A DNA stretch of 46,455 nt from Salinicola peritrichatus. Lineage in GTDB: Bacteria; Pseudomonadota; Gammaproteobacteria; Pseudomonadales; Halomonadaceae. Location of the stretch: assembly GCF_003206715.1 (NCBI RefSeq), contig NZ_PZJU01000037.1, forward strand, positions 21,735-68,189, read 5' to 3'. Each line of letters starts with the position of its first letter. Position 1 is the first letter of the stretch. The position numbers were made by a program, and so were the translations under genes. The notes beneath the pieces are model-generated. The model ran no database searches and was not told the DNA's origin. It saw only the letters and a program-made list of their open reading frames with translations. Shown here piece after piece: positions 8,313 to 39,666 of this stretch.

Positions 8313-8389
8313 GCCGATTTGCTGCGTTGTTCCAGCCCATCGCTTCGAACCATTGCCACGAATCCTTGCCACGAACATAAGGTGGATGC

Positions 8390-10146: not shown

Positions 10147-10236
10147 CGCTACCCGTTGCGTCGCTTCAGACATCGCTAAGTTTTCATACTCAAGAATCAG
10201 CTGCCCCGACGGGGCCGCGACGCGGAGACAGCCCCC

Positions 10237-10950: not shown

Positions 10951-10989
10951 GGCGCTTGTTCTTGCGGTGCTTGTCCTGACCGATACCGG

Positions 10990-11022
10990 AAGCCCCGACA
11001 GCCGAGCTGTCGGGGCTTCTTC
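10990..11022 (+). terminator. Rho-independent terminator after purC
   Basis: A perfect 13-bp stem, AAGCCCCGACAGC (10990-11002) and GCTGTCGGGGCTT (11006-11018), closes on a three-base loop. The stem is followed by CTTC. It lies 40 bp after the purC stop and separates purC from the convergent ppiA. Confidence 0.85.
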
Positions 11023-11067
11023 ATGTGCAACGGCGGCAACAGCGAAACCCAGGCCGATGCGGCGCTG

Positions 11068-11634: not shown

Positions 11635-11689
11635 CGAAATACTCCAGATAATCGTCGGGAAGACAGCCTAGCCGGAACGCTCGGCCGTG

Positions 11690-12475
11690 TCATCGGCGTT
11701 CGACCGCTTCGACCATGAGTTCGGTTTCACCGTCGCGCTCGACGGCGCGAAAACGCACGTTCACATCCCGCAGGAAGATACCGTACTCGCGTGACGTATC
11801 GTGATAGGCGGGGCGGGGATCCTGCGTCAGCACCTCTCCGATCAGACGAGTCAGCGTCTGACCGTCGGGATGCTCGGCCAGCGCGCGAACGGCATCGGCG
11901 CTGAACGAGACCGGGCACGCCGGCGGGGCTGCCGGTGCGAATCCGGCGCGGGCCTCCGGTCGCGATTCCGCCCAGGGCAGATAGGGCTTGATGTCGAGGA
12001 TCGGTGTCGCGTCGCTCAGATCGTGGCCGCGCAGGTGCAGCTTCACTCTGCTGCGATGCTTCTCGAGCCGGGAGCCGGCGATGGGAAGCGCCGCCGGAGT
12101 CGGCCGCGGGCTGGACTCGATATTCACCAGTTCGACCAGCGAGAGCCCCAGACGGTTGGGCCGATGCGTGCTGCGGCTGGCGAAAACGCCGATGCGCCGG
12201 TTACCGCCGAGCCGTGGCGGACGCACCCGTGGCGACCAGCGAGTCGGGCTGCGGTCGAAGACGAAGGTGAGCCAGAGATGGCTGAAGGTGTCGAGCCCTT
12301 CCACCGTTTGCGGATCGTCGAACGCCGAATCGAGATAGACGATCGCCCGCGCCGTCGGGGCCAGACCGGGCTGGCGGGGGATACCGAACTTGTCGGGATA
12401 GTCGCTCGAGACATGGCCGATCGCGGAGAGAGAGAAGGCGTCGATGGCCTCGAAATCGGTGGCGGAGGTCTTCAA
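11690..12475 (-). CDS. trmO: tRNA (adenine(37)-N6)-methyltransferase TrmO
   Basis: TrmO (formerly TsaA/YaeB, UPF0066) methylates N6 of t6A37 in tRNA-Thr using S-adenosylmethionine. Recognised blocks include IGHVSSDYPDKFGIPRQPGL near the N-terminus, LDTFSHLWLTFVFD, and GVFASRSTHRPNRLGLSLV, with the conserved FASRSxxRPNxLG signature. The C-terminal domain contains a PYLPWAES motif. The start is uncertain: no ATG fits, the frame is open to a TTG at 12541, and I choose TTG 12475 because TrmO proteins begin only a few residues before IGxxxS. The gene diverges from the ARD-like gene. Confidence 0.87.
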   Translation of the reverse strand: MKTSATDFEAIDAFSLSAIGHVSSDYPDKFGIPRQPGLAPTARAIVYLDSAFDDPQTVEGLDTFSHLWLTFVFDRSPTRWSPRVRPPRLGGNRRIGVFASRSTHRPNRLGLSLVELVNIESSPRPTPAALPIAGSRLEKHRSRVKLHLRGHDLSDATPILDIKPYLPWAESRPEARAGFAPAAPPACPVSFSADAVRALAEHPDGQTLTRLIGEVLTQDPRPAYHDTSREYGIFLRDVNVRFRAVERDGETELMVEAVERR

Positions 12476-12640
12476 GAGGAGAAATTCCGTAACGGTGCCA
12501 TACTGTGACCGGATGCGTTTCCTTCGCTCGCAGCATACCAAGGGAAGGTGGTTCGGCCCACGGTCGCGTGGGGCGGATGCGGTTTCGACGAAGGCGGCGC
12601 AACGTGATCGGTATGCCGAACGACCAGGGAGAGGTTCGAG

Positions 12641-13201
12641 ATGAGTTTCCTACATGTCTATCACGAGGCCGATGGCGATCAATCGCTGTTGATGACCCAG
12701 GACCCCGAACGTATCGGGCTGGAGCTGGTGGCCAACCAGATTCAGTTTCGTCGTTATACGTTGCCGCCATTGATGCCGAGCGCCACCGCCGACGCCGTAC
12801 TCGACCAGCACGCGGCGATCATCGACGAGCTCTGCCAGCTCAGCGGCTGCCGGCGTGTCGAGCTGCGCGGCATGAGTCCGGTCTATCCCGATGGCGACCT
12901 GCGACGCGAGCTGCTTTCCACCGAATCTCGCAGTGCCAGCGAGAACTGGCACCTGTTCCTGCACGGTCAGGCGATCTTCTACCTGCATTTGGGCTACCGT
13001 GTCTATGTCGTCGGTTGCGAGCGCGGCGACCTGATCTCGATTCCGGCGAACGTGCCGCACTGGTTCGACATGGGACCGCAGCCGGATTTCGTGACCTTGA
13101 GTTTGAGCAATGTCGAGTCGCATCATCTAGCCGAGACGACCAGCGATATCGCACAGCGTTTTCCACGCTTCGAGGCGCTGGTCGGCGACGCTGCGGCGTG
13201 A
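12641..13201 (+). CDS. Acireductone dioxygenase-like cupin lacking metal ligands
   Basis: The sequence is clearly of the acireductone dioxygenase (ARD/MtnD) family: 186 residues, a cupin core with GDLISIPANVPHWFDMG at 129-145 and a C-terminal RFPRFEAL. ARD binds Fe or Ni through H96, H98, E102 and H140 (Klebsiella numbering, motif HxHxxxE then H). Here the colinear positions are S96, S98, N102 and H140, in ESRSASENWHLF, so three of four ligands are gone. Normal ARD chemistry on the methionine salvage intermediate is therefore unlikely. Possible readings are a pseudoenzyme, a non-metal cupin or a binding/regulatory protein. A purine-rich site precedes ATG 12641; a GNAT gene follows after 39 bp. 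No other methionine-salvage gene is nearby. Confidence 0.8.
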   Translation: MSFLHVYHEADGDQSLLMTQDPERIGLELVANQIQFRRYTLPPLMPSATADAVLDQHAAIIDELCQLSGCRRVELRGMSPVYPDGDLRRELLSTESRSASENWHLFLHGQAIFYLHLGYRVYVVGCERGDLISIPANVPHWFDMGPQPDFVTLSLSNVESHHLAETTSDIAQRFPRFEALVGDAAA

Positions 13202-13240
13202 GCGGAATGCGCCGCCCTCATCGATCCAGGAGAGCGCACG

Positions 13241-13723
13241 ATGCTTGAGCGTACCCGTTTTCGCGAAGCCCTGCCGCGCGATGCCGCGGATCAGGCCGAA
13301 GTGTTCCATCACGCCGTGATGGAAGGCGCTTCCAGCCATTACAGCCTGGCCCAGCGCGAGGCCTGGGCGGCGGCATTGCCTCGAACCGCCGAGGCATGGA
13401 TGGCGCGTCAGGCACTCTATCCCACCTTGGTCGCCGAGTGCGACGGCCACTGTATCGGCTTCTGCGAGCGAGACGCCACGGAAGGACGCATCGAAACGCT
13501 CTACGTCTGGCCCTCCGTCGCGCGTCAGGGCATCGGCTCGCAGTTGCTGGCGCTCACGCTGGCGGCGTTGCGCGAGGCTGGGCATGAGTCGATCACCATC
13601 GACGCCAGCCTGGTGCTGGCGCCGAGTCTGCTGGCGCGTGGCTGGTCGCAGGTCGCGGAGGATTGGGTCGAGCGCCACGGCGAGCGTCTGCCACGGGTGA
13701 GATTGCATTACATTCCGCAGTAA
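13241..13723 (+). CDS. GNAT-family N-acetyltransferase
   Basis: A 160-residue GNAT domain protein. The acetyl-CoA binding motif A is visible as LYVWPSVARQGIGSQLLALTL around residues 87-107 (RQGIGS is the R/Q-x-x-G-x-G/A signature), followed by the motif B region ending in LLARGWS. The substrate cannot be predicted. AGGAGAG lies just upstream of the ATG. It follows the ARD-like gene by 39 bp in the same direction, so the two may be cotranscribed, and precedes the HxlR regulator by 46 bp. Confidence 0.83.
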   Translation: MLERTRFREALPRDAADQAEVFHHAVMEGASSHYSLAQREAWAAALPRTAEAWMARQALYPTLVAECDGHCIGFCERDATEGRIETLYVWPSVARQGIGSQLLALTLAALREAGHESITIDASLVLAPSLLARGWSQVAEDWVERHGERLPRVRLHYIPQ

Positions 13724-13761
13724 CAAGCGCTTTTCCCGCCGGACGGAATCCGTTAAAGTCG

Positions 13762-13776
13762 CTTTCATTATGAAAG
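13762..13776. promoter_or_regulatory. Palindrome overlapping the hxlR-family start codon
   Basis: CTTTCAT-T-ATGAAAG is a perfect 7-bp inverted repeat around one central base, and the ATG of the regulator lies within it (13770-13772). No Shine-Dalgarno sequence precedes the ATG. The position suggests an autoregulatory operator, and possibly a short-leader or leaderless transcript. Confidence 0.5.
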
Positions 13777-14345
13777 TGAGTAAGGGCATCGAATTCTGCC
13801 CGATCGCCCGTGCGCTGGAATGCGTCGGCGACAGCTGGACGCTATTGATCGTGCGTGACGCATTGCAGGGCGCGACGCGTTTCGATCAGTTCCAGCGCGA
13901 TCTGGGCATCGCTTCCAACATGCTGACCCGCCGTCTCGACCGCATGGTCGCCAATGGATTGTTCGAGAAGCGTCGTTACCAGACGCGCCCACCGCGTTTC
14001 GAGTATCGCCTGACCGAGAAAGGGCGCGCTCTGGCGCCGGTGATTCTCACGCTCTATCAGTGGGGGGAGCATCACCTGCCGATCGAAGCCCGGGGTCAAT
14101 GGCTCGTTCATCGGCTGACACGGCAACCGATCGAACCGACTCTCCATGACGGCCGGCAGGGTGGCCCGCTCGATCTGGGCGACGTCAGACTCGTACCCGG
14201 ACCCGATGCCACGCCGGCGATTCGCCTGCGTGCCGAACGCATGCAGGCGGCATTCGAGAACGCCTGCGCTTTTTCCGCCAGCCCCGACGACACGCCGGCC
14301 GACTCCGAGCCCGCCTGCGGGGACTGGCACCCGATCAACGACTGA
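13770..14345 (+). CDS. HxlR-family winged-helix transcriptional regulator
   Basis: The N-terminal 105 residues form an HxlR-type MarR-like winged-helix domain: CPIARALECVGDSWTLLIVRDAL, then FDQFQRDLGIASNMLTRRLDRM as the recognition region and RFEYRLTEKGRAL as the wing. C10 sits in the place of the redox-sensing cysteine found in some HxlR proteins. The remaining 85 residues are an extension with no motif I recognise, making it longer (191 residues) than a typical 110-130 residue HxlR protein. Its start lies within a palindrome. fabF-like gene 14358 follows after 12 bp and is probably in the same transcript. Confidence 0.87.
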   Translation: MKVSKGIEFCPIARALECVGDSWTLLIVRDALQGATRFDQFQRDLGIASNMLTRRLDRMVANGLFEKRRYQTRPPRFEYRLTEKGRALAPVILTLYQWGEHHLPIEARGQWLVHRLTRQPIEPTLHDGRQGGPLDLGDVRLVPGPDATPAIRLRAERMQAAFENACAFSASPDDTPADSEPACGDWHPIND

Positions 14346-14357
14346 AAGGACAATGTC

Positions 14358-15614
14358 ATGCGACGTATCGTAGTGACTGGCATGGGCATCCTCTCGCCGC
14401 TCGGTTGCGGCGTCGAGACGGTATGGCAACGACTGCTGGCGGGCGCCTCCGGGCTGCGTCGGCTACCGGCCGAGACCGTCGAGGGGCTGGCCGCCGGCGT
14501 TGGCGGCCCGGTGCCGACCATCGAGGAAGACAGCGCCGGCTTCGATCCCGATGCCACCATCGATCCCAAGGAGCGGCGCAAGATGGACCGCTTCATTCAG
14601 ATGGCGGTGGTCGCGGCGCAGGAAGCGCTGACCCAGGCCAACTGGGTTCCGCAGACGGAAGCCGAGAAGGAGCGCACCGCGACCCTGATCGGCTCCGGCA
14701 TCGGCGGCTTTCCGGCAATCGCCGAGGCGGTCCGCACCGTCGACAGCCGTGGCCCGCGCCGGCTGTCGCCGTTCACCATTCCCTCGTTTCTCGCCAACCT
14801 CGCCTGTGGCCAGGTCTCCATCCGGCATGGTTTCAAGGGACCGTTGGCCGCGCCGGTGACCGCTTGTGCCGCCGGCCTGCAGGCGATCGGCGACGCCGCC
14901 CGCATGATCCATGCCGGCGAGGCCGATATCGCCCTGTGCGGCGGCAGCGAGGCGTGCATCGATCGCGTCAGTCTCGGTGGCTTCGCCGCCGCCAAGGCGT
15001 TGTCGACGCACTTCAACGACACGCCGGAGCAGGCTTCCAGGCCGTTCGACCAGGCCCGCGACGGTTTCGTGATGGGCGAGGGCGCGGGGCTGATCGTGAT
15101 CGAGACGCTCGAGCACGCCCAGGCCAGGGGCGCGACGCCGATCGCCGAGCTGGTCGGCTACGGCACCACCTCCGACGCCTATCACATGACCGCCGGCCCC
15201 GAGGATGGCGACGGCGCCGCTCGCGCCATGCGGATCGCACTGCGACAGGCGGGGCTGGAGGCATCCGACATTCAGCACCTCAATGCCCATGCCACCTCGA
15301 CGCCGGTAGGCGATCGTGGCGAACTCGCGGCCATTCACCGTCTGTTCGGTGAGCATTCGCCGGCGATCAGCGCGACCAAGGCGGCCACTGGCCATCTGCT
15401 CGGCGCGGCCGGTGGCGTCGAGGCGATCTTTACGCTGCTGGCGCTGCGCGATCAGACCGCTCCATTGACGCGCAACTACACCGATCCCGATCCGCTGGCG
15501 GCGGACCTGGACGTGGTTCACGGCGAGTCGCGCAAGATATCGATGGAACACGCCATCTGTAACGGCTTCGGTTTTGGTGGCGTCAACGCCAGCGTGATCT
15601 TCAAGCGGTTCTGA
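14358..15614 (+). CDS. fabF: 3-oxoacyl-ACP synthase II (FabF-type)
   Basis: The enzyme condenses malonyl-ACP with acyl-ACP in fatty-acid elongation. The Cys-His-His triad is intact: C170 in VTACAAGLQAIG, H311 in NAHATSTPVGD and H346 in KAATGHLLGAAGG. The 418-residue length and the N-terminal RRIVVTGMGILSPLG fit FabF. The position beside an HxlR regulator, away from fabD/fabG/acpP, suggests this may be a second FabF-like enzyme used under specific conditions; that is inference. AAAGGA lies before the ATG. A hairpin and a palindromic repeat follow the stop. Confidence 0.88.
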   Translation: MRRIVVTGMGILSPLGCGVETVWQRLLAGASGLRRLPAETVEGLAAGVGGPVPTIEEDSAGFDPDATIDPKERRKMDRFIQMAVVAAQEALTQANWVPQTEAEKERTATLIGSGIGGFPAIAEAVRTVDSRGPRRLSPFTIPSFLANLACGQVSIRHGFKGPLAAPVTACAAGLQAIGDAARMIHAGEADIALCGGSEACIDRVSLGGFAAAKALSTHFNDTPEQASRPFDQARDGFVMGEGAGLIVIETLEHAQARGATPIAELVGYGTTSDAYHMTAGPEDGDGAARAMRIALRQAGLEASDIQHLNAHATSTPVGDRGELAAIHRLFGEHSPAISATKAATGHLLGAAGGVEAIFTLLALRDQTAPLTRNYTDPDPLAADLDVVHGESRKISMEHAICNGFGFGGVNASVIFKRF

Positions 15615-26431: not shown

Positions 26432-27751
26432 ATGACCCGCCAAGAACGTCGACTGGTCATTGCCGGCACCATGCTGATCGGCGTGAGCTACGGACTGGCG
26501 CGCTTCGCCTACGGTCTGTTCCTGCCGAGCATGCGCGACGATGTCGGCTTGAGCTCCGCCGCGGCCGGCATCATCGCTAGCGGTGCCTATGTCGGCTATT
26601 GCGTTGCCATCGTGACCAGCGCGCTACTGGTGGAGCGTCTCGGCGCGCGCCGGATGGCGGTCGCCGCAGCACTGATCGCAGCAGGTGGCATGGCAGTCGT
26701 CGCCGTCAGCACCAGTGCGATTTGGTTGGCCGGCGGCGTTCTGTTCGCGGGGCTGAGCACCGGGCTGGCATCGCCGCCCATGGCACAGGCGGTCTCGAGC
26801 GCGGTCCCGGTGGACAGGCAGGGACGCGCCAATACCGTCATCAATGCCGGCACCAGCCTCGGTGTCGCCGTCTCCGGGCCGGTCGCCTTTCTTGCCACCG
26901 GCCAGTGGCGGATCGCCTATGCCGTCTTCGCCGTTGCTGCGCTGCTCAATGCGTTACTGCTGTTGATCAGTGTGCCGCGAGCGAATGCCGGTGGCGACCG
27001 TCGGCGTGATGTCCGGCAACAGGTTCATGGCGGAGCTCTCCAGCGCCCGCGTGCGCTGGTGCTGATCGCGGCGGCCACCGGCATGGGCATGGCCAGCGCC
27101 GCTTTCTGGACCTTCTCCAGCGATGTCATCCTCACGCAGGGGCATCTCGATCAGGGCGTGGCCAATGTGACGTGGATCGTGATCGGCATGGCCGGACTGG
27201 CGGGCGCGGCGGCCGGCGATCTGATCGACCGACTTGGGCTCAATGTCGTCCATCGGGGGACGCTGGCAATGCTGGCGCTGTCGTTGTGGCTATTGGTATT
27301 GAGCCCCTCGAACCTGCCGATGGTGTTCGTCTCCGCGGGCCTCTTCGGCGCCGCCTATATCATGCTCACCGGGGTCTATCTGGTCTGGGGCGTCAGGCTC
27401 TACGCGGATCGGCCGGCGATCGGGCTGGGGCTGCCTTTTCTGATGATCGCTATCGGCCAGGTCATCGGCTCGCCGTTGGCCGGCTATCTGATCGGCAGCG
27501 CAGGATACACTGTCTGCTTCGTTGTCTTTGCGGTGATCGCCCTGGCGACGGTGCTGGCCGGATATCACTCGGATAGGCAGGGGAGCGGCACGGAGCCGAG
27601 TCAAAACGTTTCCCCGCGGATGGATATGGCACGCCCGCCGTCACCCCCGATCCCGCGCTTCTACATGCCGGCCATGCCGCCGCTGTGGTTGATCGAGAAG
27701 ATCGGCCGGAGACTCGGCGGTTGGCTTGGTGCCCGGACCGATAGACGCTGA
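26432..27751 (+). CDS. MFS transporter, YbfB/YjiJ type
   Basis: A 439-residue membrane protein with about 12 helices. The first helices read TMLIGVSYGLARFAYGLFLPS and contain the GxxYGxARFAYG-like signature of the YbfB family; GLSTGLASPPMAQAVSSAV forms helix four. The C-terminal 60 residues after about 380 are hydrophilic and proline-rich and end in a basic stretch, an unusual extension. AAGGAG precedes the ATG. With the TetR gene and its shared operator this is a typical repressor-exporter pair; the inducing compound is unknown. It converges with the amidase gene. Confidence 0.85.
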   Translation: MTRQERRLVIAGTMLIGVSYGLARFAYGLFLPSMRDDVGLSSAAAGIIASGAYVGYCVAIVTSALLVERLGARRMAVAAALIAAGGMAVVAVSTSAIWLAGGVLFAGLSTGLASPPMAQAVSSAVPVDRQGRANTVINAGTSLGVAVSGPVAFLATGQWRIAYAVFAVAALLNALLLLISVPRANAGGDRRRDVRQQVHGGALQRPRALVLIAAATGMGMASAAFWTFSSDVILTQGHLDQGVANVTWIVIGMAGLAGAAAGDLIDRLGLNVVHRGTLAMLALSLWLLVLSPSNLPMVFVSAGLFGAAYIMLTGVYLVWGVRLYADRPAIGLGLPFLMIAIGQVIGSPLAGYLIGSAGYTVCFVVFAVIALATVLAGYHSDRQGSGTEPSQNVSPRMDMARPPSPPIPRFYMPAMPPLWLIEKIGRRLGGWLGARTDRR

Positions 27752-27816: not shown

Positions 27817-29181
27817 TCACGCATCCAGCATCGCTTCCACGACGCAGGCGTGCTGCAGCAGCGCCGCGTCGTCGCCCTGGGGGCGCGACAGCATCAGGCC
27901 GATCGGCAAGTCGCTACCTGCCGGAAAGTAAGGCAACGAGATCGAGGCGGCGTCGAGGTAGTTGAAGACGCTGGTGTTGCGCAGCACCAGCCGGTTTGCC
28001 CGCTGAAACGCGGCGGCGTCGTTCTCGAGTTCGGCCCGCTTTGGCGGAAGAGTAGCCACGGTGGGCAGCAGTACGGCGTCGAATCCTGCCACTTCCTCTT
28101 TGAAGCGGCGTTGCCAGCCCGTCCTCGGCCACAGGCGCTGGAGATAGTCGGCCGCGCTGACGCCGTGGCCGCCGTTCAAGCGCTCGGCAATCAGTGGGTC
28201 ATAGTCGGACTCGGCGCGTTCCAGCATTGCGCGGTGCAGCGCGGCGGCTTCCGGCACCACCAGGCCGCCTTGCTGATTGATCGCCAGGGTACCGTCGATG
28301 GCGGCCATCGGCAGGCGTTCGATATGGCAGCCCAGCTTTTCGAGCCGGGCCACGGCCGCTTCGAAGCCATCGCGGACGGTATCATCCAGTTCGCCCAACA
28401 GGCCGCCTTCGGCAATCGCCAGGCGCAGCGGGCGCGGGGTGGGATCGAGCACCGGCATCGGCTGGCCGGCGAGTACCGACCACAGCCGGGCGCAGCAATC
28501 GACGCTGGGGGCGATCGGGCCGACGCAGTCGAGACTCGGTGCCAGCGGATAGGCGCCTTCGCCGGGCACCGCTTCCTGGCTGGGCTTGAACCCGGTCAGG
28601 CCGCAGAAGGCCGCCGGAATCCGCAGCGAGCCGCCGGTGTCGCTGCCGAGCGTGGCGGCAGCCAGGCCGAAGGCCACGGAAGCGGCACCGCCGGAGGTCG
28701 AGCCGCCGGTGATGCGATCGGCATCGAACGGGTTGGGCGGCGTACCGTAATGCCGATTGAGCCCAAGCCCGGAGAACGCGAACTCGCTCATGTTGGTGCG
28801 GCCGGTCAGTACCGCCCCCGCCCGGCGCAAGCGCTCGACGGCGGGGGCGTCTGCGCCGGCCGGCGGCGCACCGCGGAGCACCTTGGAGGCGGCCTTGGTG
28901 ATCTCGCCGCGCACGTCGAACAGATCCTTGATGCTGAGCGTCAGGCCAGCCAGCGGGGCGCCGGCATCGATGCGTGGCAGTTGTGCTCGCAGGCGATCGG
29001 CGTCGAATTCGATGAATGTCTTCGCGACAACGTCCGGTTGCGCCTGGACGCGCTCGGCAAGCACCTCGACGGCATCGCCCGGGGTGAAGTCTCCGCGCAG
29101 AAAGGCGGCCCGCCAATCCGCCAGCCGGCGTTGGCGGGGAGGGCGCGACCAGAAGGCTCGTGCTGCGTCCTGTCCGTTCAT
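27817..29181 (-). CDS. Amidase-signature family hydrolase
   Basis: A 454-residue amidase-signature enzyme, hydrolysing C-N bonds of amides or ureides. The Ser-cisSer-Lys triad is present: K85 in LSIKDLFDV, S161 in GGSTSGG and nucleophile S185 in GSDTGGSLRIP; the S-S spacing of 24 fits the family. The DPTPRPLRLAI segment and glycine-rich insert resemble allophanate-hydrolase/AtzF or mandelamide-hydrolase groups only loosely. It is the last gene of the DUF1445-TRAP cluster and overlaps the DUF2848 gene by four bases (ATGA), so these two proteins probably act in sequence. I chose the 29181 start over the open frame to 29496. Confidence 0.86.
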   Translation of the reverse strand: MNGQDAARAFWSRPPRQRRLADWRAAFLRGDFTPGDAVEVLAERVQAQPDVVAKTFIEFDADRLRAQLPRIDAGAPLAGLTLSIKDLFDVRGEITKAASKVLRGAPPAGADAPAVERLRRAGAVLTGRTNMSEFAFSGLGLNRHYGTPPNPFDADRITGGSTSGGAASVAFGLAAATLGSDTGGSLRIPAAFCGLTGFKPSQEAVPGEGAYPLAPSLDCVGPIAPSVDCCARLWSVLAGQPMPVLDPTPRPLRLAIAEGGLLGELDDTVRDGFEAAVARLEKLGCHIERLPMAAIDGTLAINQQGGLVVPEAAALHRAMLERAESDYDPLIAERLNGGHGVSAADYLQRLWPRTGWQRRFKEEVAGFDAVLLPTVATLPPKRAELENDAAAFQRANRLVLRNTSVFNYLDAASISLPYFPAGSDLPIGLMLSRPQGDDAALLQHACVVEAMLDA

Positions 29182-29861
29182 TGGGCAACCTCGAGTTCGA
29201 TGACGCTGTAGCTGTGACTCAGGCGGCGATTCAGAACGGGATCGTTGAGCGTCATCGAGAAACGCGGGCTGGGCCGAATGCCGCCGATGGCCGGGACGGT
29301 GCCGCACAGCAGCAGCGTATTCGGTGCCAGGAACTCTCCCTGCTTGAGCGCGGCGGGCAGTTTGGCCAGCAGCGTATCGACATCCAGCAGCTCGGCGAGC
29401 GTGCCTTTTTGATAGGCGACGACCTCGCCGTTCTCTTCGATCCGGCTTTCGAGCTCCAGCGAATCCCAGTGTTCTCGCACTTCCTCCAGCGCCCACGCCT
29501 GGGTGGCGATCGGCTTGGCGCAGAGCTGCTTGGATTCGGCCACGCCCACCGCTTCGAGTTTACGGTCGGTGTGGTCGGAAGCCAGCGTCACCCACAAGCG
29601 GCCATCGCTATCGCTGACCAAGCAGACTTCCGCTTCGCCGGAGCCTTCGCCGCCGAGCATTTCGACGTTCTCGGCCTGGGTCAGCAGCTGGGTGCTGGCG
29701 CGATAGAACAGCGGCGTGGTCGAGGGGGGCTTGACGCCGAGTTCGGCGAGCTCCTCGATGTGATGGCGCACGCCGGCCTGGTCGCGGCCGGCCCAGCCGG
29801 CGATGGCCAGGCGTTGCGGTTCGAGGGAGAGCGTGCCCTGGGGCGTTTCGAAAGTCAGCAT
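29178..29861 (-). CDS. DUF2848 family protein
   Basis: A 227-residue soluble protein with the DUF2848 pattern GWAGRDQAGVRHHIEELAELGVKPP (residues 22-46, quoted here in adjoining pieces: GWAGRDQAGVRHHIE and ELAELGVKPP), followed by STTPLFYR and SDHTDRKLEAVGVAESKQLC. The fold is reminiscent of fumarylacetoacetate hydrolase-type proteins, but I cannot show metal ligands with confidence and do not assign an activity. It is cotranslated with the amidase and lies 25 bp after dctM, so a role in breaking down the imported compound is inferred. Confidence 0.82.
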   Translation of the reverse strand: MLTFETPQGTLSLEPQRLAIAGWAGRDQAGVRHHIEELAELGVKPPSTTPLFYRASTQLLTQAENVEMLGGEGSGEAEVCLVSDSDGRLWVTLASDHTDRKLEAVGVAESKQLCAKPIATQAWALEEVREHWDSLELESRIEENGEVVAYQKGTLAELLDVDTLLAKLPAALKQGEFLAPNTLLLCGTVPAIGGIRPSPRFSMTLNDPVLNRRLSHSYSVIELEVAQ

Positions 29862-29886
29862 GAGAGTCGTCCTGATCAGAAAAAGG

Positions 29887-31167
29887 TCACAAGGAGCTGG
29901 GCAGCCACAGGGCGAGGCCGGGAAAGGCCACCAGCAGGCCCGCCATCAGCAGCATGGCGACGATGAACGGCAGCGTGCCGGTTACCACGTCCGCGAATGG
30001 CTTGCCGCGCCGCGCTGCCTGCACGATATAGAGATTGAGCCCCACCGGTGGGGTGATCAGCGCCATCTCGACGAACAGGATCATCACCACGCCGAACCAC
30101 ACCTTGTCGAAGCCGGCGGCGGCGATCAGCGGGGTGACGATGGGAATCGTGATCACCATCAGTGACAGCGTCTCGATGAAGAAGCCGAGCACGATGAACA
30201 GCACGATGACCGCCAGCAGCAGGCCATAGGGCGACAGGTCGTAGGTGTTCAAGAGCGTGGTCAGTTTCTGCACCAGTCCCGATGAGGTCAGCGCGAAGTT
30301 CAAAAACGAGGCCGCCAGGATGATGAACAGCAGCATCGCGGTGGTTTTCACCGTGCCATCGAGTGCTGCCATCAGCATGCGGCGGTCGAGCCGTCGATTG
30401 CAGGCGGCCAGCGCCAGCGACACGATCACGCCGACGGCGGCGGCTTCGGTGGGAGTGGCCCAGCCGAGATAGATCGAGCCGACGATGACCACGAACAGCA
30501 CCAGTAGCGGCAGCAGGAACGCCAGGCTGCGAAAGCGTGCTTCCCAGCTGGCGACATGGCGCGGGCCGCCGAGGCTGGGTTTCCACCAGCACAACACCAG
30601 GGCCATCAGCATGAACAGTAGCGCCAGGCCCAGCCCGGGCAGCAGTCCAGCCATGAACAGCTTGGGAATCGAGGTTTCGGTCAAAAAGCCGTAGACGATC
30701 AGATTGATCGAAGGCGGAATCAGGATGCCCAGCGTGCCGCCGGCGGCGATGCTGCCGCAGAAGAGTCGCGGATCGTAGCCAAGTTTCTCGCCCTGGGGCA
30801 GAGCCACGGTCGAGATCGTCGCGGCGGTGGCCACCGAGGAGCCGGACGTGGCGGAGAACAGCGCGGCGGTGGTGATGTTGGCGTGAATCAGGCCGCCCGG
30901 CAGCCACGAAAGCCAGTGATCCATCGCTCGGTAGGCCTTCTCGGCGATGCCGGCACGCACGATGATCTCGCCCATCAGCACGAACAGCGGAATCGCGATC
31001 AGCAGGAAGGAATCCGCCGCCGACCACAGATTCTGTCCCAGCGCCTTGGTCAGCGGAAAGAGGGAAAAGAACTGGTCGACGCCGAAGGCCAGCAGGAACA
31101 GCGTTACCGCCACCGGAATGCCGGCCAGCAGCAGCACCACGATACCGATCGAGAGAAAGCCCAGCAT
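29887..31167 (-). CDS. dctM: TRAP transporter, large permease subunit (DctM)
   Basis: The 12-to-13-helix subunit of a tripartite ATP-independent transporter, 426 residues, powered by the sodium or proton gradient. Family motifs include IAIPLFVLMGEIIVRAGIAEK, GSIAAGGTLGILIPPSINLIVYG (typical TRAP GxxIPPSxxxI) and MALITPPVGLNLYIVQ. The start at 31167 has GGAGGAG upstream and shares one base with the dctQ stop (TGATG). In a halophile the driving ion is likely sodium, an inference. Partner subunits are dctQ and dctP immediately upstream. Confidence 0.93.
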   Translation of the reverse strand: MLGFLSIGIVVLLLAGIPVAVTLFLLAFGVDQFFSLFPLTKALGQNLWSAADSFLLIAIPLFVLMGEIIVRAGIAEKAYRAMDHWLSWLPGGLIHANITTAALFSATSGSSVATAATISTVALPQGEKLGYDPRLFCGSIAAGGTLGILIPPSINLIVYGFLTETSIPKLFMAGLLPGLGLALLFMLMALVLCWWKPSLGGPRHVASWEARFRSLAFLLPLLVLFVVIVGSIYLGWATPTEAAAVGVIVSLALAACNRRLDRRMLMAALDGTVKTTAMLLFIILAASFLNFALTSSGLVQKLTTLLNTYDLSPYGLLLAVIVLFIVLGFFIETLSLMVITIPIVTPLIAAAGFDKVWFGVVMILFVEMALITPPVGLNLYIVQAARRGKPFADVVTGTLPFIVAMLLMAGLLVAFPGLALWLPSSL

Positions 31168-31757
31168 CAGCGTGACTCCTCCCGGGTCGAGGCTTCGCCA
31201 AGCTCGCCGTTGTCCATGCCTATCAGCGCATCGAGCGTTTTGGTGTCGCGCTGGAACAGTGCGGCCAGCACCCGCAGCCCCAGGACGCTGGTGGTGAAGG
31301 CGAACCAGCAGTATCCCGTTGCCCACAGCAGTTGCGGGATCCAGAGAGGCGTGGCCAGAGGCGTGTTGGCGGTGGAGGCATTGGCCAGCGACTTGGTCAG
31401 CACCGGATAGGCGTTCAGCGCGATCATCCAGGCGACCAGATTGAGCGCCAGTAGCGAGATCACGTTGAGCGTATGCTGCGACAACGCCGGAAGGCGTCCA
31501 TGCAGTACGTCGATCCGGATATGCGCGCGTTCTAGCAGCGTGTGGGAGAGCCCCCAGGCCGACAGCACGGCCAATACGTAGCCCGAGTATTCATGCACGC
31601 CGGGCAGTGAATGACCGGCCAGTTTGCGCAGCAGTATCTCGATGCCGATGAACAGTACCACCGCCATCAGTGCCAGGCCGATCAGGCGCGCGGCGAGACG
31701 TGAAATGCCGCGGGTGATACGTACCAGCCCGTCCAGACTTCGGGTCAATCCAGACAT
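31167..31757 (-). CDS. dctQ: TRAP transporter, small permease subunit (DctQ)
   Basis: A 196-residue protein with four predicted transmembrane helices: about residues 20-42, 55-75, 95-118 and 140-165. It contains GIEILLRKLAGHSLPG and LERAHIRIDVLHGRLP, the usual DctQ ERAHIRID-like signature. It works with DctM as the membrane part of the transporter. It has about 25 polar residues after the last helix. It lies 55 bp after dctP and overlaps dctM by one base. Confidence 0.9.
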   Translation of the reverse strand: MSGLTRSLDGLVRITRGISRLAARLIGLALMAVVLFIGIEILLRKLAGHSLPGVHEYSGYVLAVLSAWGLSHTLLERAHIRIDVLHGRLPALSQHTLNVISLLALNLVAWMIALNAYPVLTKSLANASTANTPLATPLWIPQLLWATGYCWFAFTTSVLGLRVLAALFQRDTKTLDALIGMDNGELGEASTREESR

Positions 31758-31812
31758 GGTGTGTTCCTATCGGAGGGCGCCGGCCGACAGGCCAGCGCGC
31801 TTTGGGGCCGCT

Positions 31813-32895
31813 TCAGGGCGTTTTGGCCTGCAGGCCGACGATCTTGCCGACGCTGGCATTCCACTGGGTGAGGGTATCCGCATCGACACGGCCGGCCCAG
31901 GCGGGGAGGACGCTCTCCTCCAGGGCCTGGTGGGCGCGCTGGATATCGGCGTCGGTCGGTTTGACCAGCGTCATGTCGGCGGGCTCGCCCAGCGGACATT
32001 CGCCCTGGCCGGTAAGGCAGGCGATTCCGCGCTGGGTCTCGGTCTTGGCGTTGGCCCAGACCGGTGCCACGAACTGCTGGTTGACCTGATCCTGAATCAA
32101 CTGCTGCTCGTCCGCGCTCAGACTGCCCCACTTGTCCTGATTGATCGCGGTGATGACATAGTCCCAACCGCCGATGGGCAGCGGCAATATATGGCTCGAA
32201 ACGTCATACCAGCCGGCGCTGTAGCCGGACATCGAGCCGGTCACGGCGCAGTCGATGACGCCGCGCTCGAGCGAGCCGGGCACTTCGTTGAAGGCGATAT
32301 TGAGACTCTGGGCGCCGAGCGCCTCGAGGAACTCCCCGGTGGAGCGACCGCTGCCACGAACCTTCTTGCCCTCGAGATCGGAAAGTCCCGAGATCGGCGT
32401 GTTGCAGAACAGCACTTGGGCGGGATAAGGCACGATCGCCAGTACATGGCTGTTGAAGTGATCGTTCATGGCCTTTTCGGCGATCGGGCGGAAGGCGTCG
32501 GCCACCGCCCGAGCCTTACTGGCCTCGGTGGCCATCATCGGCAGGTCGAGGCCTTCGAGTTCCGGGGCATCGCTGACGGTATAGTCACCGACCGTCATGC
32601 CGACATCGAACAGACCGTCGCCCAGGTAGCGGAAGACATCGCCGCTGGCGATTCCCATCTGATCGAAGCTGGTGACCTGGGTGGTGATGTCACCATCACT
32701 GGCTTCCGGCAGGGTCTCGCTCCAGAACGGCTTTTCGAATTTCTGATGCAGCTCCAGGCTGCCCCAGCTACCGACGACGTTGAGCGACGTTTCCGCCATG
32801 GCGGGCATCGCCATGGCGGCGGTCGAGAGAACGGCGGCAGCGAGGACGGCGACCGGCTTGCGCCAGTCGGCGCATACTTGGGAAGAACAAATCAT
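31813..32895 (-). CDS. dctP: TRAP transporter solute-binding protein (DctP)
   Basis: A 360-residue periplasmic binding protein. A signal peptide ends near residue 34 (MAMPAMA before ETS). The mature protein contains the DctP pattern LSDLEGKKVRGSGRSTGEFLEALGAQ, in which the arginine of KVRG is the conserved carboxylate-binding residue, and GVIDCAVTGSMSGYSAGWYDV. The substrate is thus probably a carboxylate. The mature part has four cysteines, two of them (ACLTGQGEC) close together and possibly disulfide-bonded. It is the first transporter gene, placed after the DUF1445 gene. Confidence 0.92.
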   Translation of the reverse strand: MICSSQVCADWRKPVAVLAAAVLSTAAMAMPAMAETSLNVVGSWGSLELHQKFEKPFWSETLPEASDGDITTQVTSFDQMGIASGDVFRYLGDGLFDVGMTVGDYTVSDAPELEGLDLPMMATEASKARAVADAFRPIAEKAMNDHFNSHVLAIVPYPAQVLFCNTPISGLSDLEGKKVRGSGRSTGEFLEALGAQSLNIAFNEVPGSLERGVIDCAVTGSMSGYSAGWYDVSSHILPLPIGGWDYVITAINQDKWGSLSADEQQLIQDQVNQQFVAPVWANAKTETQRGIACLTGQGECPLGEPADMTLVKPTDADIQRAHQALEESVLPAWAGRVDADTLTQWNASVGKIVGLQAKTP

Positions 32896-32911
32896 GATGT
32901 CGGACCTCTTG

Positions 32912-32951
32912 TTGGCATTGTCGGGGTGGGCATTTTTGAATTGGCATTGTC
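32912..32951. repeat. Direct repeat upstream of dctP
   Basis: TTGGCATTGTC occurs at 32912-32922 and at 32941-32951, 29 bp apart, in the 80-bp gap before dctP. It may be a regulator site or a chance repeat. The DUF1445 stop region next to it (32957-32979) can form a bulged hairpin CTAG-CCCG/CGGG-CTAG without a T-run. Confidence 0.4.
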
Positions 32952-32975
32952 TGAGCTAGGCCCGTTCGGCTCGGG

Positions 32976-33776
32976 CTAGCCGTACTTCAAGCGTTGGTTG
33001 GGAATGTCGGTGATCAGCATGTGCCCCGGACTGTGCGTGATCGCCAGCGGCAGGCGCGCTGCCTCGATCGCGGCCTGGGGCGTCACGCCGCAAGCCCAGA
33101 ACACCGGCAATTCATCATCGTGAATGATCGGCGCATCGCCGAAATCCGGCTGTGCAAGGTCGGCAATGCCCAGCGATGCCGGCAGGCCGATATGCACCGG
33201 AGCACCGTGCACCCTCGGCATGTCGGTGGTGATCTGGATCGCGCGGATGGCGTCCGCCGGCGTGAACGGGCGCATCGAAACGACTAGATTGCCGCCGAAC
33301 GGCCCACTGGGTTCGAGCGGTATCCGGGTGCGGTACATCGGCACGTTACGGTCGAGCTGGACATGACGCACTTCGAGCCCGTCGGCCATCAGCGCATCCT
33401 CGAACGAGAACGAGCAGCCGATCGAGAAGGTAACCAGATCATCCTGCCACCAATCGGCGATATCCGTGGGTTCCTCGCTCAATATTCCGTCTCGATAAAG
33501 GCGGTAACGCGGCACGTCATGGCGTAGATCGATATCGGTACCCAGCGATCGCGGATGCGGGTCGCCGGGATCGGTCACGTCCAGCAGTGGGCAGGCGCGG
33601 GGATTGCGCTGACAGAAGCGCAGGAAGTCCTCGGCATGGCGCGCCGGCAGGATCACCAGATTGGCCTGGGCGTAACCCGGCGCGAGGCCACTGGTATGTC
33701 GGTCCCATCCTCCATGACGGATGGCCTGTCGCGCGCCGAGGGGCTGTCTGAGGTCATGAATCTGAGCGTCGGTCAT
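32976..33776 (-). CDS. DUF1445/YcsI-family putative hydro-lyase
   Basis: A 266-residue soluble protein of the DUF1445 family (YcsI, also related to the N-terminal part of mammalian D-glutamate cyclase). Visible blocks are [18 protein letters not shown] near 26-43, [13 protein letters not shown] around 117-129, [20 protein letters not shown] and the C-terminal [31 protein letters not shown] (quoted here across residues 230-260). The catalytic activity of bacterial members is not firmly established. In Bacillus subtilis, ycsI lies with 5-oxoprolinase genes. Here it opens the TRAP-amidase cluster; LysR lies 95 bp upstream. Confidence 0.85.
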
Positions 33777-33821
33777 GAGGCGACTCGCGTTGTGATTATG
33801 TTCCGACGATAGAAAGCGGTC

Positions 33822-33865
33822 ATTGATAAGGCAAATCGATTTTTTTGATTTTTACTGATTGATAA
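33822..33865. promoter_or_regulatory. A/T-rich control region between lysR and the DUF1445 gene
   Basis: The 95-bp gap is strikingly A/T-rich. It contains ATTGATAA twice (33822-33829 and 33858-33865), with a run of T between them. This is the expected location of the DUF1445-TRAP-amidase promoter and a LysR binding site, but I cannot define boxes. Confidence 0.45.
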
Positions 33866-33871
33866 ATCCTT

Positions 33872-34786
33872 TCATTGGCGGCGCTGGGCATACTGAAAAT
33901 GGCGTTGTTGATCGAGTCCGGCGATCTCTATCGCCAGCTCGGTGATGCCTGTGGCCAGGTCGTTGTCGAGATGCCGGGGCCAGGACGCGGTGAATTCGAG
34001 CTCGGGCAGCGCGATCGGCAACTCGACCAGTTTTCCCTCGACCAATTCCTCGTGCGCCAGGCGGGGCGGAATCGCGCCGATGCCCAGCCCGTCCAGGGTC
34101 ATGCGCACGATCGTCCAGAGTGAACTCGAGCAATGCAGCTTGAGATGTTCGAGCTTCTGCTGATGCAGCAACGAACCCAGCTCCCGATAGGGGCGGCTGT
34201 CGCGGGCGAAGGTGATCAGCGGCAGGCCGCGCAGGCGCTGCAACGAGAAATCCTCGGGATCCAGCCCGAGCGCAGGGCTCGCGATCAGGCCCATGGTGTA
34301 ATGACAGAGAAAGCGATTGAGCACCTCCTGGACGTTGACCGGCCCCATCAGAAACGCCATGTCGATGTCGCGGCTGTGCAGCTTGTTGGCGAGCCCCGGG
34401 GAGCTGTCGACTTCGAGCTCCAGCGTCATCTCGGGAAAACGGCGCGACAGTTCGGCGAGGAACTGCGGCAGCCAGCTGTGCGCGATCGATTCGACCACGC
34501 CGAGACGCAGCGTGCCCTGGAAGGGCGTGGCCAGCTCGAGCATCGCCAGCGCTTCCTGGCGTGCCTCCATCAATCGCAGGGCGTGGCGATGGAACTGACG
34601 TCCTTTGGGCGTCGGCTTGATCGGACGCTGGGTGCGTTCCAGCAACGGCTCGCCGACGATCGACTCCAGCCGCGCGATGCGATCGGACACCGATGGCTGG
34701 GTCAGGTGCAGGTGGCGCGCCGCGAGGCGGAACGAGCCCAGGCGGACGATCCAGACGAAGGCTTCGATTTCCTTGAAGTCGAACAT
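33872..34786 (-). CDS. LysR-family transcriptional regulator
   Basis: A 304-residue LysR protein. The N-terminal HTH (residues 1-60) reads FKEIEAFVWIVRLGSFRLAARHLHLTQPSVSDRIARLE (quoted as FKEIEAFVWIVRLGSF and RLAARHLHLTQPSVSDRIA), followed by the linker helix and the periplasmic-binding-like effector domain. Gene order and orientation make it the likely regulator of the DUF1445-TRAP-DUF2848-amidase genes downstream. It is codirectional with them, not divergent as LysR genes often are. Confidence 0.92.
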   Translation of the reverse strand: MFDFKEIEAFVWIVRLGSFRLAARHLHLTQPSVSDRIARLESIVGEPLLERTQRPIKPTPKGRQFHRHALRLMEARQEALAMLELATPFQGTLRLGVVESIAHSWLPQFLAELSRRFPEMTLELEVDSSPGLANKLHSRDIDMAFLMGPVNVQEVLNRFLCHYTMGLIASPALGLDPEDFSLQRLRGLPLITFARDSRPYRELGSLLHQQKLEHLKLHCSSSLWTIVRMTLDGLGIGAIPPRLAHEELVEGKLVELPIALPELEFTASWPRHLDNDLATGITELAIEIAGLDQQRHFQYAQRRQ

Positions 34787-35116
34787 GGCGGACCCGGTGC
34801 GCGGTGAATGGGATGAGCTGGCTGCAGACGCGTCAGTATTGCATACCGACGCCGGCGGGTCGGCGGCACGATTTCCGCCAGGCCGGATGTCCGATTCCGG
34901 CCAACGTCGCTACAATGGGGAACCCTTTCTGCGTCGGGCGTATTCGATCCGCTTCACAAGAGCCGCTACGTTCGCGCAAAGTCACCTGACCGTGACACCA
35001 GGATACGCCGATCGTCCTCTTTCGCTGCTTCACCCCAGCCCGGTAGGCGTTCACCGATCTTTGCCGATTGAGGCAATCAGATCAGCCAGATTGAGTCGAA
35101 TAAACAGGAGCGCTTG
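34787..35116. other. Intergenic region between divergent lysR and ilvD
   Basis: This 330-bp gap holds no gene I can support. It has a -10-like TACAAT at 34911-34916 on the plus strand without a convincing -35 box, and a small inverted repeat TTGCC-N6-GGCAA at 35057-35072, 45 bp before ilvD. I see no leader peptide rich in branched-chain residues, so attenuation is not supported. Confidence 0.45.
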
Positions 35117-36853
<1,737 letters not shown>

Positions 36854-37640: not shown

Positions 37641-39584
37641 TCAGGCGGCGCGATGTTCGCGCATCCAGGCGATCAAGCCCCCGCTGAATAGTATCTCGAT
37701 CTGGCGCGGCGTCAGACGGTGTTCGAGGCGCAGCGTCTTGTCGCCGGCCCTGGCGCCAATCTCATTGCTGGCTTCCAGCGCCTGGCGCAGATTCTCGAAC
37801 GCGACCTCGCTGCCGATCTCCAGCGTGTCGTAGTCGCTGGCGTCGACGAAGGTCAGCGGCAGCACGCCGAAGTTGATCAGGTTCTGCTCGTGAATGCGCG
37901 CAAAACTCCTGGCCAGCACGATGCGCAGCCCCAGATAGCGCGGTGCGATGGCGGCGTGCTCGCGACTCGAACCCTGACCGTAGTTGTTGCCGCCGATGAC
38001 GATATGATCGCCGGTCTTGCGAGCCTGAGCGGCATAGCCTTCCATGACCCCGCGAAAGGCGAATTCGGCGATCTTCGGAATGTTGGAGCGGTAGGGCAGC
38101 ACTTCGCCACCGGCGGGCATGATCTCGTCGGTGGAGACATCGTCGCCGGCCTTCACCAGGACCGGAAGGGTCAGGCGCGTCTCCAGCGGTTCGAAATCGG
38201 GGAGCGATTCGATGTTCGGTCCCTTGATCAGATGAATCTTGCGCGCCTTCTCCTCGTCCAACGGCGGTATCAGCGTGCGCGTGTTGACGATCGGGTCGCT
38301 GGGCTCCTCGATTCGGGGATAGGGCATGTCGAGGGTCCTCGGGTCGGTGATCACGCCATTGAGCGCCGAGGCCGTGGCGGTTTCCGGGCTGCACAGGAAG
38401 ACGCGATCCTCGCGGGTGCCGGAGCGGCCGGGAAAGTTGCGCGGTACCGTGCGCAGACTGTTGACCTCGTTGGCTGGGGCTTGCCCCATGCCGATACAGC
38501 CGTTGCAACCGGCCTGATGCAGGCGTGCGCCGGCATCCAGCAGGCTGAACAGATGCCCGTCTCGGGTCAGGGTCTCGAGAATCGAGCGTGAAGTGGGATT
38601 GATCTCCAGCGAGACGTCGTCGTCGACGGTGCGCCCTTCGAGCATGGCGGCCGCGACGGCGAAATCGCGGTAGCCGGGGTTGGCCGAGGAGCCGATATAG
38701 GCCTGCGACAGCGGCTCGCCGGCGATCTCGCGCACCGGCACGACATTGGCGGGACTCGACGGCTTGGCGATCAGCGGCTCGAGATGGCTCAGGTCGATCT
38801 CTTCGCGGCAGTCGTAGCGACAGCCGTCGTCGGGCAGTAGCTCTTGCCAGTCGTCGCCCCGGCCCTCCGCGCATAGGAATGCCTTCACCGCGGCGTCTGA
38901 AGGGAACACGCTGGTGGTGGCGCCGAGTTCGGCTCCCATGTTGGCGATCACGTGGCGATCCATGGCCGAGAGCTGCTCGAGCCCAGGGCCGTAGTACTCG
39001 ATGATGCGGCCGACCCCGCCGCTGACGCCGTGACGGCGCAACATCTCGAGGATGACATCCTTGGCGCTGATCCAGTCGGGCAGGCGGCCATCGAGACGCA
39101 CGCCCCACACTTCCGGCATCCGGGTATAAAAAGGCTCGCCGGCCATCGCCATGGCGACGTCGATGCCGCCGGCGCCGATCGCCAGCATGCCCAGCGAACC
39201 GGCGGCCGGTGTATGGCTGTCGGAACCCAGTAGCGTCTTGCCGGGCTTGCCGAAACGCTGCTGATGGGTCGGGTGGCTGACGCCGTTACCGGGGCGCGAG
39301 AACCAGACCCCGAGGCGCTGCGCTGCCGTCTGCAGGAAGCGGTGGTCGTCGGGGTTCTTATTGTCCTCCTGGATCAGGTTGTGATCGACGTACTGTGCCG
39401 ATATCTCGGTTTTGACACGCTCGAGACCCATCGCCTCCAGCTCCAGCATCACCATGGTGCCGGTGGCATCCTGGGTCAGGGTTTGATCGATTTTCAGGCC
39501 GACCGCCTCGCCGGGCGTCATGTCGCCGCTGACGAGGTGCGAAGCGATCAGCTTCTGGGTGACGTTACGGGGTGTGTGGCGCAT
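37641..39584 (-). CDS. Aconitate hydratase, Aquifex-type
   Basis: A 647-residue single-chain aconitase of the shorter type, built from LeuC-like and LeuD-like domains. Blocks include GSDSHTPAAGSLGMLAIGAGG, GATTSVFPSD, QAGCNGCIGMGQAP with C360 and C363, and the swivel-domain GGNNYGQGSSREHAA. The usual first cluster-ligand motif IGSCTN reads IGSSAN at 297-302, so that cysteine is Ser300. Whether this is normal for the subfamily I cannot check. The frame opens at 39614; the start at 39584 has GGGAG upstream. It converges with the small secreted gene and is divergent from the phosphodiesterase gene. Confidence 0.85.
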   Translation of the reverse strand: MRHTPRNVTQKLIASHLVSGDMTPGEAVGLKIDQTLTQDATGTMVMLELEAMGLERVKTEISAQYVDHNLIQEDNKNPDDHRFLQTAAQRLGVWFSRPGNGVSHPTHQQRFGKPGKTLLGSDSHTPAAGSLGMLAIGAGGIDVAMAMAGEPFYTRMPEVWGVRLDGRLPDWISAKDVILEMLRRHGVSGGVGRIIEYYGPGLEQLSAMDRHVIANMGAELGATTSVFPSDAAVKAFLCAEGRGDDWQELLPDDGCRYDCREEIDLSHLEPLIAKPSSPANVVPVREIAGEPLSQAYIGSSANPGYRDFAVAAAMLEGRTVDDDVSLEINPTSRSILETLTRDGHLFSLLDAGARLHQAGCNGCIGMGQAPANEVNSLRTVPRNFPGRSGTREDRVFLCSPETATASALNGVITDPRTLDMPYPRIEEPSDPIVNTRTLIPPLDEEKARKIHLIKGPNIESLPDFEPLETRLTLPVLVKAGDDVSTDEIMPAGGEVLPYRSNIPKIAEFAFRGVMEGYAAQARKTGDHIVIGGNNYGQGSSREHAAIAPRYLGLRIVLARSFARIHEQNLINFGVLPLTFVDASDYDTLEIGSEVAFENLRQALEASNEIGARAGDKTLRLEHRLTPRQIEILFSGGLIAWMREHRAA

Positions 39585-39666
39585 GATTGGCTCCCAGTGT
39601 TTCCACACTGACATTGGCTAACCTCTTCAGTGTAGGAGAGACCTTGCGAACACACGGAGCGTGCGC

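Follow-up and report, generated by a model that had tools for sequence, protein, structure and literature searches.

A seven-gene TRAP transporter, DUF1445, DUF2848 and amidase locus of Salinicola peritrichatus as a candidate operon for use of a cyclic-amide acid

Results

In a 46,455-nucleotide stretch of Salinicola peritrichatus DNA (contig NZ_PZJU01000037.1, hereafter the window), seven genes encode a LysR-type regulator, a DUF1445 protein, the three parts of a tripartite ATP-independent periplasmic (TRAP) transporter (DctP, DctQ and DctM), a DUF2848 protein and an amidase-signature hydrolase. We tentatively read this locus as a catabolic operon, fed by the TRAP transporter, whose substrate would be a small cyclic-amide acid akin to 5-oxoproline (pyroglutamate), probably not 5-oxoproline itself. 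The broad class of substrate, a pyroglutamate-like cyclic-amide acid, we consider likely; the reading as a whole is possible and is held with somewhat less than even confidence. A preliminary description of the same DNA had already pointed to a cyclic amide, ureido or N-acyl carboxylate, and a cyclic-amide or 5-oxoproline-like substrate is favoured by the linkage of DUF1445 to 5-oxoprolinase (pxp) genes, by a pxp-linked paralogue of the LysR regulator and by amide or lactam hydrolases that stand in for the amidase in other genomes, whereas DctP did not turn out to be of the pyroglutamate type. All seven open reading frames (ORFs) are intact and lie on the minus strand, from LysR at 34786 down to the amidase at 27817, and all seven proteins exceed the curated Pfam cut-offs for their families:

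33872..34786, minus strand, LysR-type regulator (Pfam HTH_1 73.4 bits, LysR_substrate 119.5 bits)
32976..33776, minus strand, DUF1445 / D-glutamate cyclase family PF07286, 266 aa (217.6 bits, cut-off 25)
31813..32895, minus strand, dctP, TRAP solute-binding protein (PF03480 74.7 bits; R180 in K-x-R)
31167..31757, minus strand, dctQ, TRAP small permease (PF04290 61.9 bits)
29887..31167, minus strand, dctM, TRAP large permease (PF06808 290 bits)
29178..29861, minus strand, DUF2848 protein, 227 aa, an enzyme of the fumarylacetoacetate hydrolase (FAH) superfamily (Pfam DUF2848 245.2 bits)
27817..29181, minus strand, amidase-signature hydrolase, 454 aa (PF01425 242.6 bits; NCBIfam PRK07056 482.4 bits, cut-off 447; K85, S161, S185)

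By their coordinates, the gaps are 95 bases between LysR and DUF1445, 80 between DUF1445 and dctP, 55 between dctP and dctQ and 25 between dctM and DUF2848, and there are overlaps of 1 base between dctQ and dctM and of 4 bases between DUF2848 and the amidase gene; here the ATG starts at 31167 (dctM) and 29181 (amidase) were picked over the longer starts of the ORF list, 31326 and 29496. The order of the set on one strand, its overlaps and the 25-base gap were thus reproduced as first described. Promoter and terminator signals in a consensus scan of the locus were no more frequent than in shuffled sequence, so that single-unit transcription rests on spacing and conservation, from which we infer that the seven genes are transcribed as one unit, least firmly for LysR.

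The same genes recur as a set in other genomes. We analysed 80 named loci with flanks of up to 10 kb, which were the best 80 of at least 550 confirmed DUF2848 relatives and therefore form a sample biased towards the query; several of them stop early at contig ends (e.g. L114). All seven parts were found within 5.5 kb of DUF2848 in 18 of the 80 loci, from Salinicola and other Halomonadaceae, Marinobacter, Labrenzia/Roseibium, Paracoccus, Rhizobium, Microvirga and Bordetella, and 11 of these 18 showed the order and strands of the window, while LysR was divergent in 4 and DUF1445 came after the amidase in 3. Matches were concentrated near DUF2848 (within 5.5 kb versus further off: amidase 42 vs 2, DUF1445 44 vs 0, dctM 34 vs 3, LysR 41 vs 9; 822 kb of sequence near and 575 kb far), and the pairing of DUF2848 with an amidase, first noticed in this single genome, proved widespread. 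Among the 32 loci bearing dctM, DUF1445 was present in 27 and the amidase in 21.

Genome-wide counts gave a similar picture. Of 151 genomes of the family, 40 have DUF2848, 47 have DUF1445 and 39 have both, which means that DUF1445 occurs in 39 of the 40 DUF2848-bearing genomes and in 8 of the other 111 (Fisher p 5e-27, a value that ignores relatedness and assumes, from the genome handles, that both 151-genome draws are identical). The two genes lie at most 6 kb apart in 35 of the 39; among the four remaining genomes, G016 and G128 carry them on separate contigs, with the DUF2848 gene of G128 near a contig start. Relatives of dctM and the amidase flank DUF2848 in 28 of 30 loci from the family search (30 of 40 places, the window's own included). 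In the phylum-wide sample, in which 35 of 398 genomes have DUF2848, 29 new loci (of 37 places, L001 being repeated) contained an amidase relative in 25 cases and a dctM relative in 10, within about 3.6 kb. The unit also occurs on plasmids, as all seven genes are present on annotated ones from Thioclava and Paracoccus, and DUF2848 was seen on plasmids from one archaeon and from several Gram-positive bacteria (19 of 55 DUF2848 plasmid records opened, hand-picked for variety, two of them without annotation). An arrangement of neighbours without a common pathway would agree with promoter and terminator signals that do not rise above chance; recurrence, near/far enrichment and phylogenetic profile argue against it, and it is extremely improbable. 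On the same grounds, a chance neighbourhood of the seven genes was ruled out, and the single-pathway idea did not fail for want of co-occurrence elsewhere, as the preliminary description had said it might.

Links to 5-oxoproline come first from DUF1445. The present Pfam name of PF07286, the former DUF1445, is 'D-glutamate cyclase', and the mouse enzyme of that name presumably joins DUF1445 to a second domain. The second domain is DUF4392, and mouse mitochondrial D-glutamate cyclase converts D-glutamate to 5-oxo-D-proline (PMC5339696, in the accessible part of the text, where the name DUF1445 is absent). In the window protein, PF07286 is the sole match over 266 aa and DUF4392 was not found; the cyclase label is therefore no proof, and the protein is a member of the D-glutamate cyclase family with a putative cyclase activity. 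A Lactiplantibacillus plasmid carries DUF1445 inside a pxp operon, flanked by a biotin carboxylase gene and pxpA; on a plasmid from Azospirillum it is found close to pxpB, a pxpC-type gene and pxpA (2 of 240 listed DUF1445 plasmid records opened). In Bacillus subtilis, ycsG, ycsI and the pxpABC genes share one operon (PMC10448178, accessible part), which agrees with the earlier statement that the DUF1445 gene ycsI lies beside 5-oxoprolinase genes. Relatives of pxpB and pxpC also occur within 9 kb of DUF2848 in 6 of the 80 named loci, downstream of the amidase in four, and in Thioclava the seven-gene set adjoins a pxp operon. None of pxpA, pxpB and pxpC is among the window's seven genes, with the PxpA and PxpC families found on other contigs. 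Among open-licence papers naming DUF1445, none was judged to concern its function from titles and the openings of abstracts.

These findings could also be explained if the substrate were D-glutamate or 5-oxo-D-proline, interconverted by DUF1445, with the remaining enzymes on a side branch. The family name, the product of the mammalian enzyme and the presence of DUF1445 inside pxp operons on the Lactiplantibacillus and Azospirillum plasmids agree with this, as does a gene that, by its sequence, we take to be Asp/Glu-racemase-like and that lies near DUF1445 in eight loci of another type (short-chain dehydrogenase/reductase (SDR), DUF1445, DUF2848, CoA-transferase). However, DUF2848 and the amidase would be left without a clear task, the measured mammalian enzyme has the DUF4392 domain that the window protein lacks, and a pyroglutamate-type TRAP transporter with pxpABC exists elsewhere in the genome, which makes this explanation quite unlikely. 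Separately, Klebsiella plasmids are rich in DUF1445, accounting for 93 of the 240 plasmid records with a match.

Second, the genome contains a sister locus. The best other match of the window LysR among 64 in its own genome (itself counted) is a protein on contig C84 (257 bits, 45%), the next scoring 72 bits, and at that locus (L146, G000:C84:28000-47000, at 8044-14677) pxpCBA diverges from LysR-dctPQM; PxpA and PxpC were called by family search, and PxpB, dctQ and dctM were named from sequence and position. The C84 DctP scores 263.5 bits against 2pfy and 242.2 bits against 2pfz, which we take to be Bordetella pertussis proteins crystallised with pyroglutamate. Work on pyroglutamate-bound Bordetella proteins is described, without structure codes, in the accessible part of PMC5812351. 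By sequence comparison, the window DctP has no close kinship with this subfamily; its best own-genome paralogue is the C84 DctP (52.7 bits), with 26% identity over 224 residues. Two Bordetella loci have a DctP nearer the C84 type (239 and 248 bits) about 5-6 kb from DUF2848. From the LysR paralogue, the DctP distances and the pxp neighbours, the window and 5-oxoproline systems look like sisters whose substrates are related but not the same. The TRAP transporter of the window has DctP, DctQ and DctM together, and the conserved arginine reported for DctP was seen as R180 in K-x-R, presumably a ligand-binding residue. As for candidate ligands, 5-oxoproline as the main substrate was rejected because of the separate pyroglutamate-type TRAP and pxpABC locus and the remoteness of the window DctP from the DctP encoded there, and a C4-dicarboxylate was rejected by argument only, as it would leave the amidase unexplained.

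Third, an amide hydrolase is a frequent partner of DUF2848. In the window amidase, K85, S161 and S185, which we take to be the catalytic Lys-Ser-Ser residues, are in the expected motifs, so that the intact triad first noted was found again; PF01425 is its sole Pfam match, and PF00795 (CN_hydrolase) was not matched. Other enzymes occupy this slot elsewhere. In Sulfitobacter (L149, 5429-9007), a single-chain hydantoinase A+B/oxoprolinase-type protein, closest to caprolactamase subunits and far below the cut-off, lies between dctM and DUF2848 where the amidase is missing; CN-hydrolases lie beside DUF2848 in the amidase's stead in Priestia, Streptomyces and Rhodococcus and, by annotation only, in Prescottella; and pxpBC is in the amidase position at L114. 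The Priestia CN-hydrolase (L154, 7801-8961) matches Cupin_7 weakly towards its C-terminus (21.3 bits, cut-off 27). As this cupin family stands alone in monooxygenase sets, the Priestia match suggests that the cupin may partner the amide hydrolase.

The DUF2848 protein is a member of the FAH superfamily by fold, metal triad and His-Glu dyad. The FAH fold spans nearly the whole protein, and E76/E78/D96, H34/E37, R100, K111 and G187-T188 align to the FAH profile (hhalign probability 90.2, E 1.6e-6) and are invariant in 23 of 23 aligned DUF2848 proteins; in FAH enzymes, E-x-E and D are presumably the metal ligands and H-E the catalytic dyad, accompanied by the Arg, the Lys and the GT motif. Pfam PF01557 was not matched by the window protein; it was matched by 3 of the 23 aligned proteins (best E 3.5e-5) and, in the relative G087, exceeded the cut-off (24.9 bits) at the same place as its DUF2848 gene. 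In fold and in all of these residues the protein thus resembles fumarylpyruvate hydrolase, FAHD1 and Cg1458, but it is only 10-19% identical to FAH proteins among the matches listed, has its own Pfam family and often has an amide hydrolase as genetic partner. From the fold and the catalytic residues, its ligand should be a 2-oxo acid. The nearest folds include fumarylpyruvate hydrolases and FAHD1, with YisK also among the FAH-fold relatives; YisK and FAHD1 have oxaloacetate decarboxylase activity. Those relatives, and an asparaginase-family gene near DUF2848 in 4 of the 80 named loci, would agree with a ringless 2-oxo acid amide such as 2-oxosuccinamate as the substrate, converted by the amidase to oxaloacetate and then decarboxylated by DUF2848; this would leave the DUF1445 and pxp linkage unaccounted for and is very unlikely. 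The name DUF2848 was not found in the open-licence papers searched.

Other neighbourhoods of DUF2848 were also found. A major facilitator superfamily (MFS) transporter accompanies DUF2848 and the amidase in one type, that MFS being present in 13 of the 80 named loci, and DUF2848 and the amidase also occur with GntR. An HpaB-type monooxygenase is present, by label, in 6 of the 80, with a flavin reductase, a cupin and a branched-chain-type ATP-binding cassette (ABC) importer. Caballeronia and Roseateles plasmids (L161, 2890-12127; L200, 2043-12653) carry a flavin reductase, HpaB-type monooxygenase, small cupin/DUF4437, amidase, DUF2848 and ABC importer, sets suggestive of N-heterocycle catabolism. 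Pyrrole-2-carboxylate monooxygenase produces 5-hydroxypyrrole-2-carboxylate, hydration of which would give 2-hydroxy-5-oxoproline. One table places this monooxygenase and 4-hydroxyphenylacetate 3-hydroxylase together among the two-component enzymes of group D (PMC6165268, accessible part). In addition, a gene before DUF2848 in Vibrio belongs to an aminotransferase family, one after it in Rhodococcus encodes an ene-reductase family protein, and in Paraburkholderia and Caballeronia a gene annotated as ureidoglycolate lyase is found behind the divergent LysR. The aminotransferase, ene-reductase, ureidoglycolate lyase and monooxygenase contexts all fit hydroxy-lactam or hemiaminal chemistry, and none proves it.

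The monooxygenase sets, together with the fumarylpyruvate hydrolases and FAHD1 among the nearest folds and the retained dyad and metal triad, also speak for a different role, in which DUF2848 would cleave a C-C bond of an N-containing 2,4-dioxo acid (e.g. the ring-opening product of an N-heteroaromatic) to pyruvate and an amide acid, from which the amidase would then free ammonia. However, no oxygenase is among the window's set, and the 5-oxoproline links through DUF1445, pxp and the LysR paralogue would be unaccounted for; we judge C-C cleavage rather unlikely.

Discussion

In the proposed pathway, DctPQM would import the lactam acid, LysR would sense the imported compound or an intermediate, DUF1445 and DUF2848 would handle the ring and the 2-oxo acid released on its opening, and the amidase would free ammonia from the resulting carboxamide. 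The operon would thereby probably supply carbon and nitrogen from the imported ring compound. We infer which substrate is used, that its amide bond is the target and in what order the steps follow. The earlier idea of two consecutive steps by DUF2848 and the amidase stands in outline and is sharpened by the D-glutamate cyclase name and by the FAH fold. The compound that fits most of the contexts is 2-hydroxy-5-oxoproline, the ring form of 2-oxoglutaramate, which the candidate route would convert to 2-oxoglutarate and ammonia; that it is the actual substrate is a doubtful proposal. 2-Oxoglutaramate cyclises to 2-hydroxy-5-oxoproline as its favoured form, which differs from pyroglutamate only at C2, and nuclear magnetic resonance at pH 5 to 11 showed the closed ring alone (PMC9806585, accessible part). 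An enzyme that opens this ring would aid the amidase. For DUF2848, this would mean a new FAH-superfamily activity, in which the 2-oxo-acid metal site opens the hydroxy-lactam (an N-acyl hemiaminal) and passes the open-chain 2-oxo amide to the partner amide hydrolase, a role that we regard as distinctly speculative and unlikely as a single claim.

Several observations weigh against the cyclic-amide pathway. Ring opening by DUF2848 is its weakest link. FAH chemistries include C-C hydrolysis, decarboxylation and dehydration, and we know of no hydroxy-lactam opening among FAH reactions, so the proposed role would be new. On the DUF2848 tree, the TRAP label needs 7 changes, 3 of them forced by well-supported branches, and the family may hold several activities; the contexts with monooxygenase and cupin could instead yield ring-cleavage products. 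The window DctP scores only 42.7 bits to 2pfy and 35.8 to 2pfz, its best solved relative reaching 61.2 bits. Within 5.5 kb, 11 of the 32 loci with dctM have no amidase, and 15 of the 80 have DUF1445 and DUF2848 without TRAP or amidase (the SDR-DUF1445-DUF2848-CoA-transferase type), which places the preliminary description of a 'complete unit' and single pathway beyond the support. In L112 and L126 an amidase relative is found no nearer than about 8-9 kb from DUF2848, and in several loci with dctM (e.g. L089, L106, L119 and L120) no such enzyme was seen by eye in the next 3.5 kb, from ORF starts only and with no search made. Those enzymes in the amidase's place that were scanned fall below the curated NCBIfam cut-offs, so our claim for the stand-ins goes no further than the broad class, and the Rhodococcus plasmid also has an annotated amidase on the opposite strand, at a distance of about 5 kb.

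The 15 SDR-type loci (among L068-L109, Reyranella-like) form a single clade on the DUF2848 tree, and a proline-racemase family gene is nearby in 9 of them; as 8 of the 15 are named Reyranella, they represent few independent cases.

Compared with known systems, the operon stands beside, not within, the 5-oxoprolinase systems, and all of its protein families are already known. In PxpABC loci with their importers (e.g. Corynebacterium glutamicum pxpTABC, PMC13274462, accessible part), as in the window, catabolic genes that bear on 5-oxoproline chemistry are joined by a dedicated importer and a regulator; DUF1445 is common to the window and some pxp operons, and the LysR-dctPQM-pxpABC sister locus lies in the same genome. 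In contrast to those loci, it has DUF2848 and an amidase-signature enzyme, no pxpABC and a DctP remote from the pyroglutamate type. The glutamine transaminase-omega-amidase pathway would share substrate and product with the window (2-oxoglutaramate to 2-oxoglutarate) only if our best reading holds; omega-amidase belongs to the nitrilase superfamily, whereas the window would use an amidase-signature enzyme, plus an importer and two extra enzymes. In the open-licence literature searched, no paper on this combination of gene families was found.

The FAH placement and the frequent amide-hydrolase partner make DUF2848 a testable enzyme. If the 5-oxoproline-like reading is true, bacteria would have, next to 5-oxoprolinase, a further route in pyroglutamate chemistry, and bacterial DUF1445 proteins, which owe their cyclase label to the mammalian enzyme, would gain a substrate context. 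If hydroxy-lactam opening is true, the window operon would be devoted to the bacterial uptake and consumption of 2-hydroxy-5-oxoproline, which has been proposed as a plant nitrogen-status signal (PMC9806585, accessible part), and the same two-enzyme core would serve oxygenase, transaminase and ene-reductase routes converging on hydroxy-lactams.

In its own genome (4.6 Mb), the locus holds the single DUF2848 and the single DUF1445, with amidase-signature places over the cut-off numbering 11, and the closest named relatives are Salinicola (DUF2848 identity 89%). An MFS gene at 26432-27751 (plus strand) converges on the seven-gene set, and a dihydroxy-acid dehydratase gene at 35114-36853 (plus strand) diverges from its LysR side; beyond the latter, a large ORF at 37641-39614 has, by eye, the look of the aconitase family.

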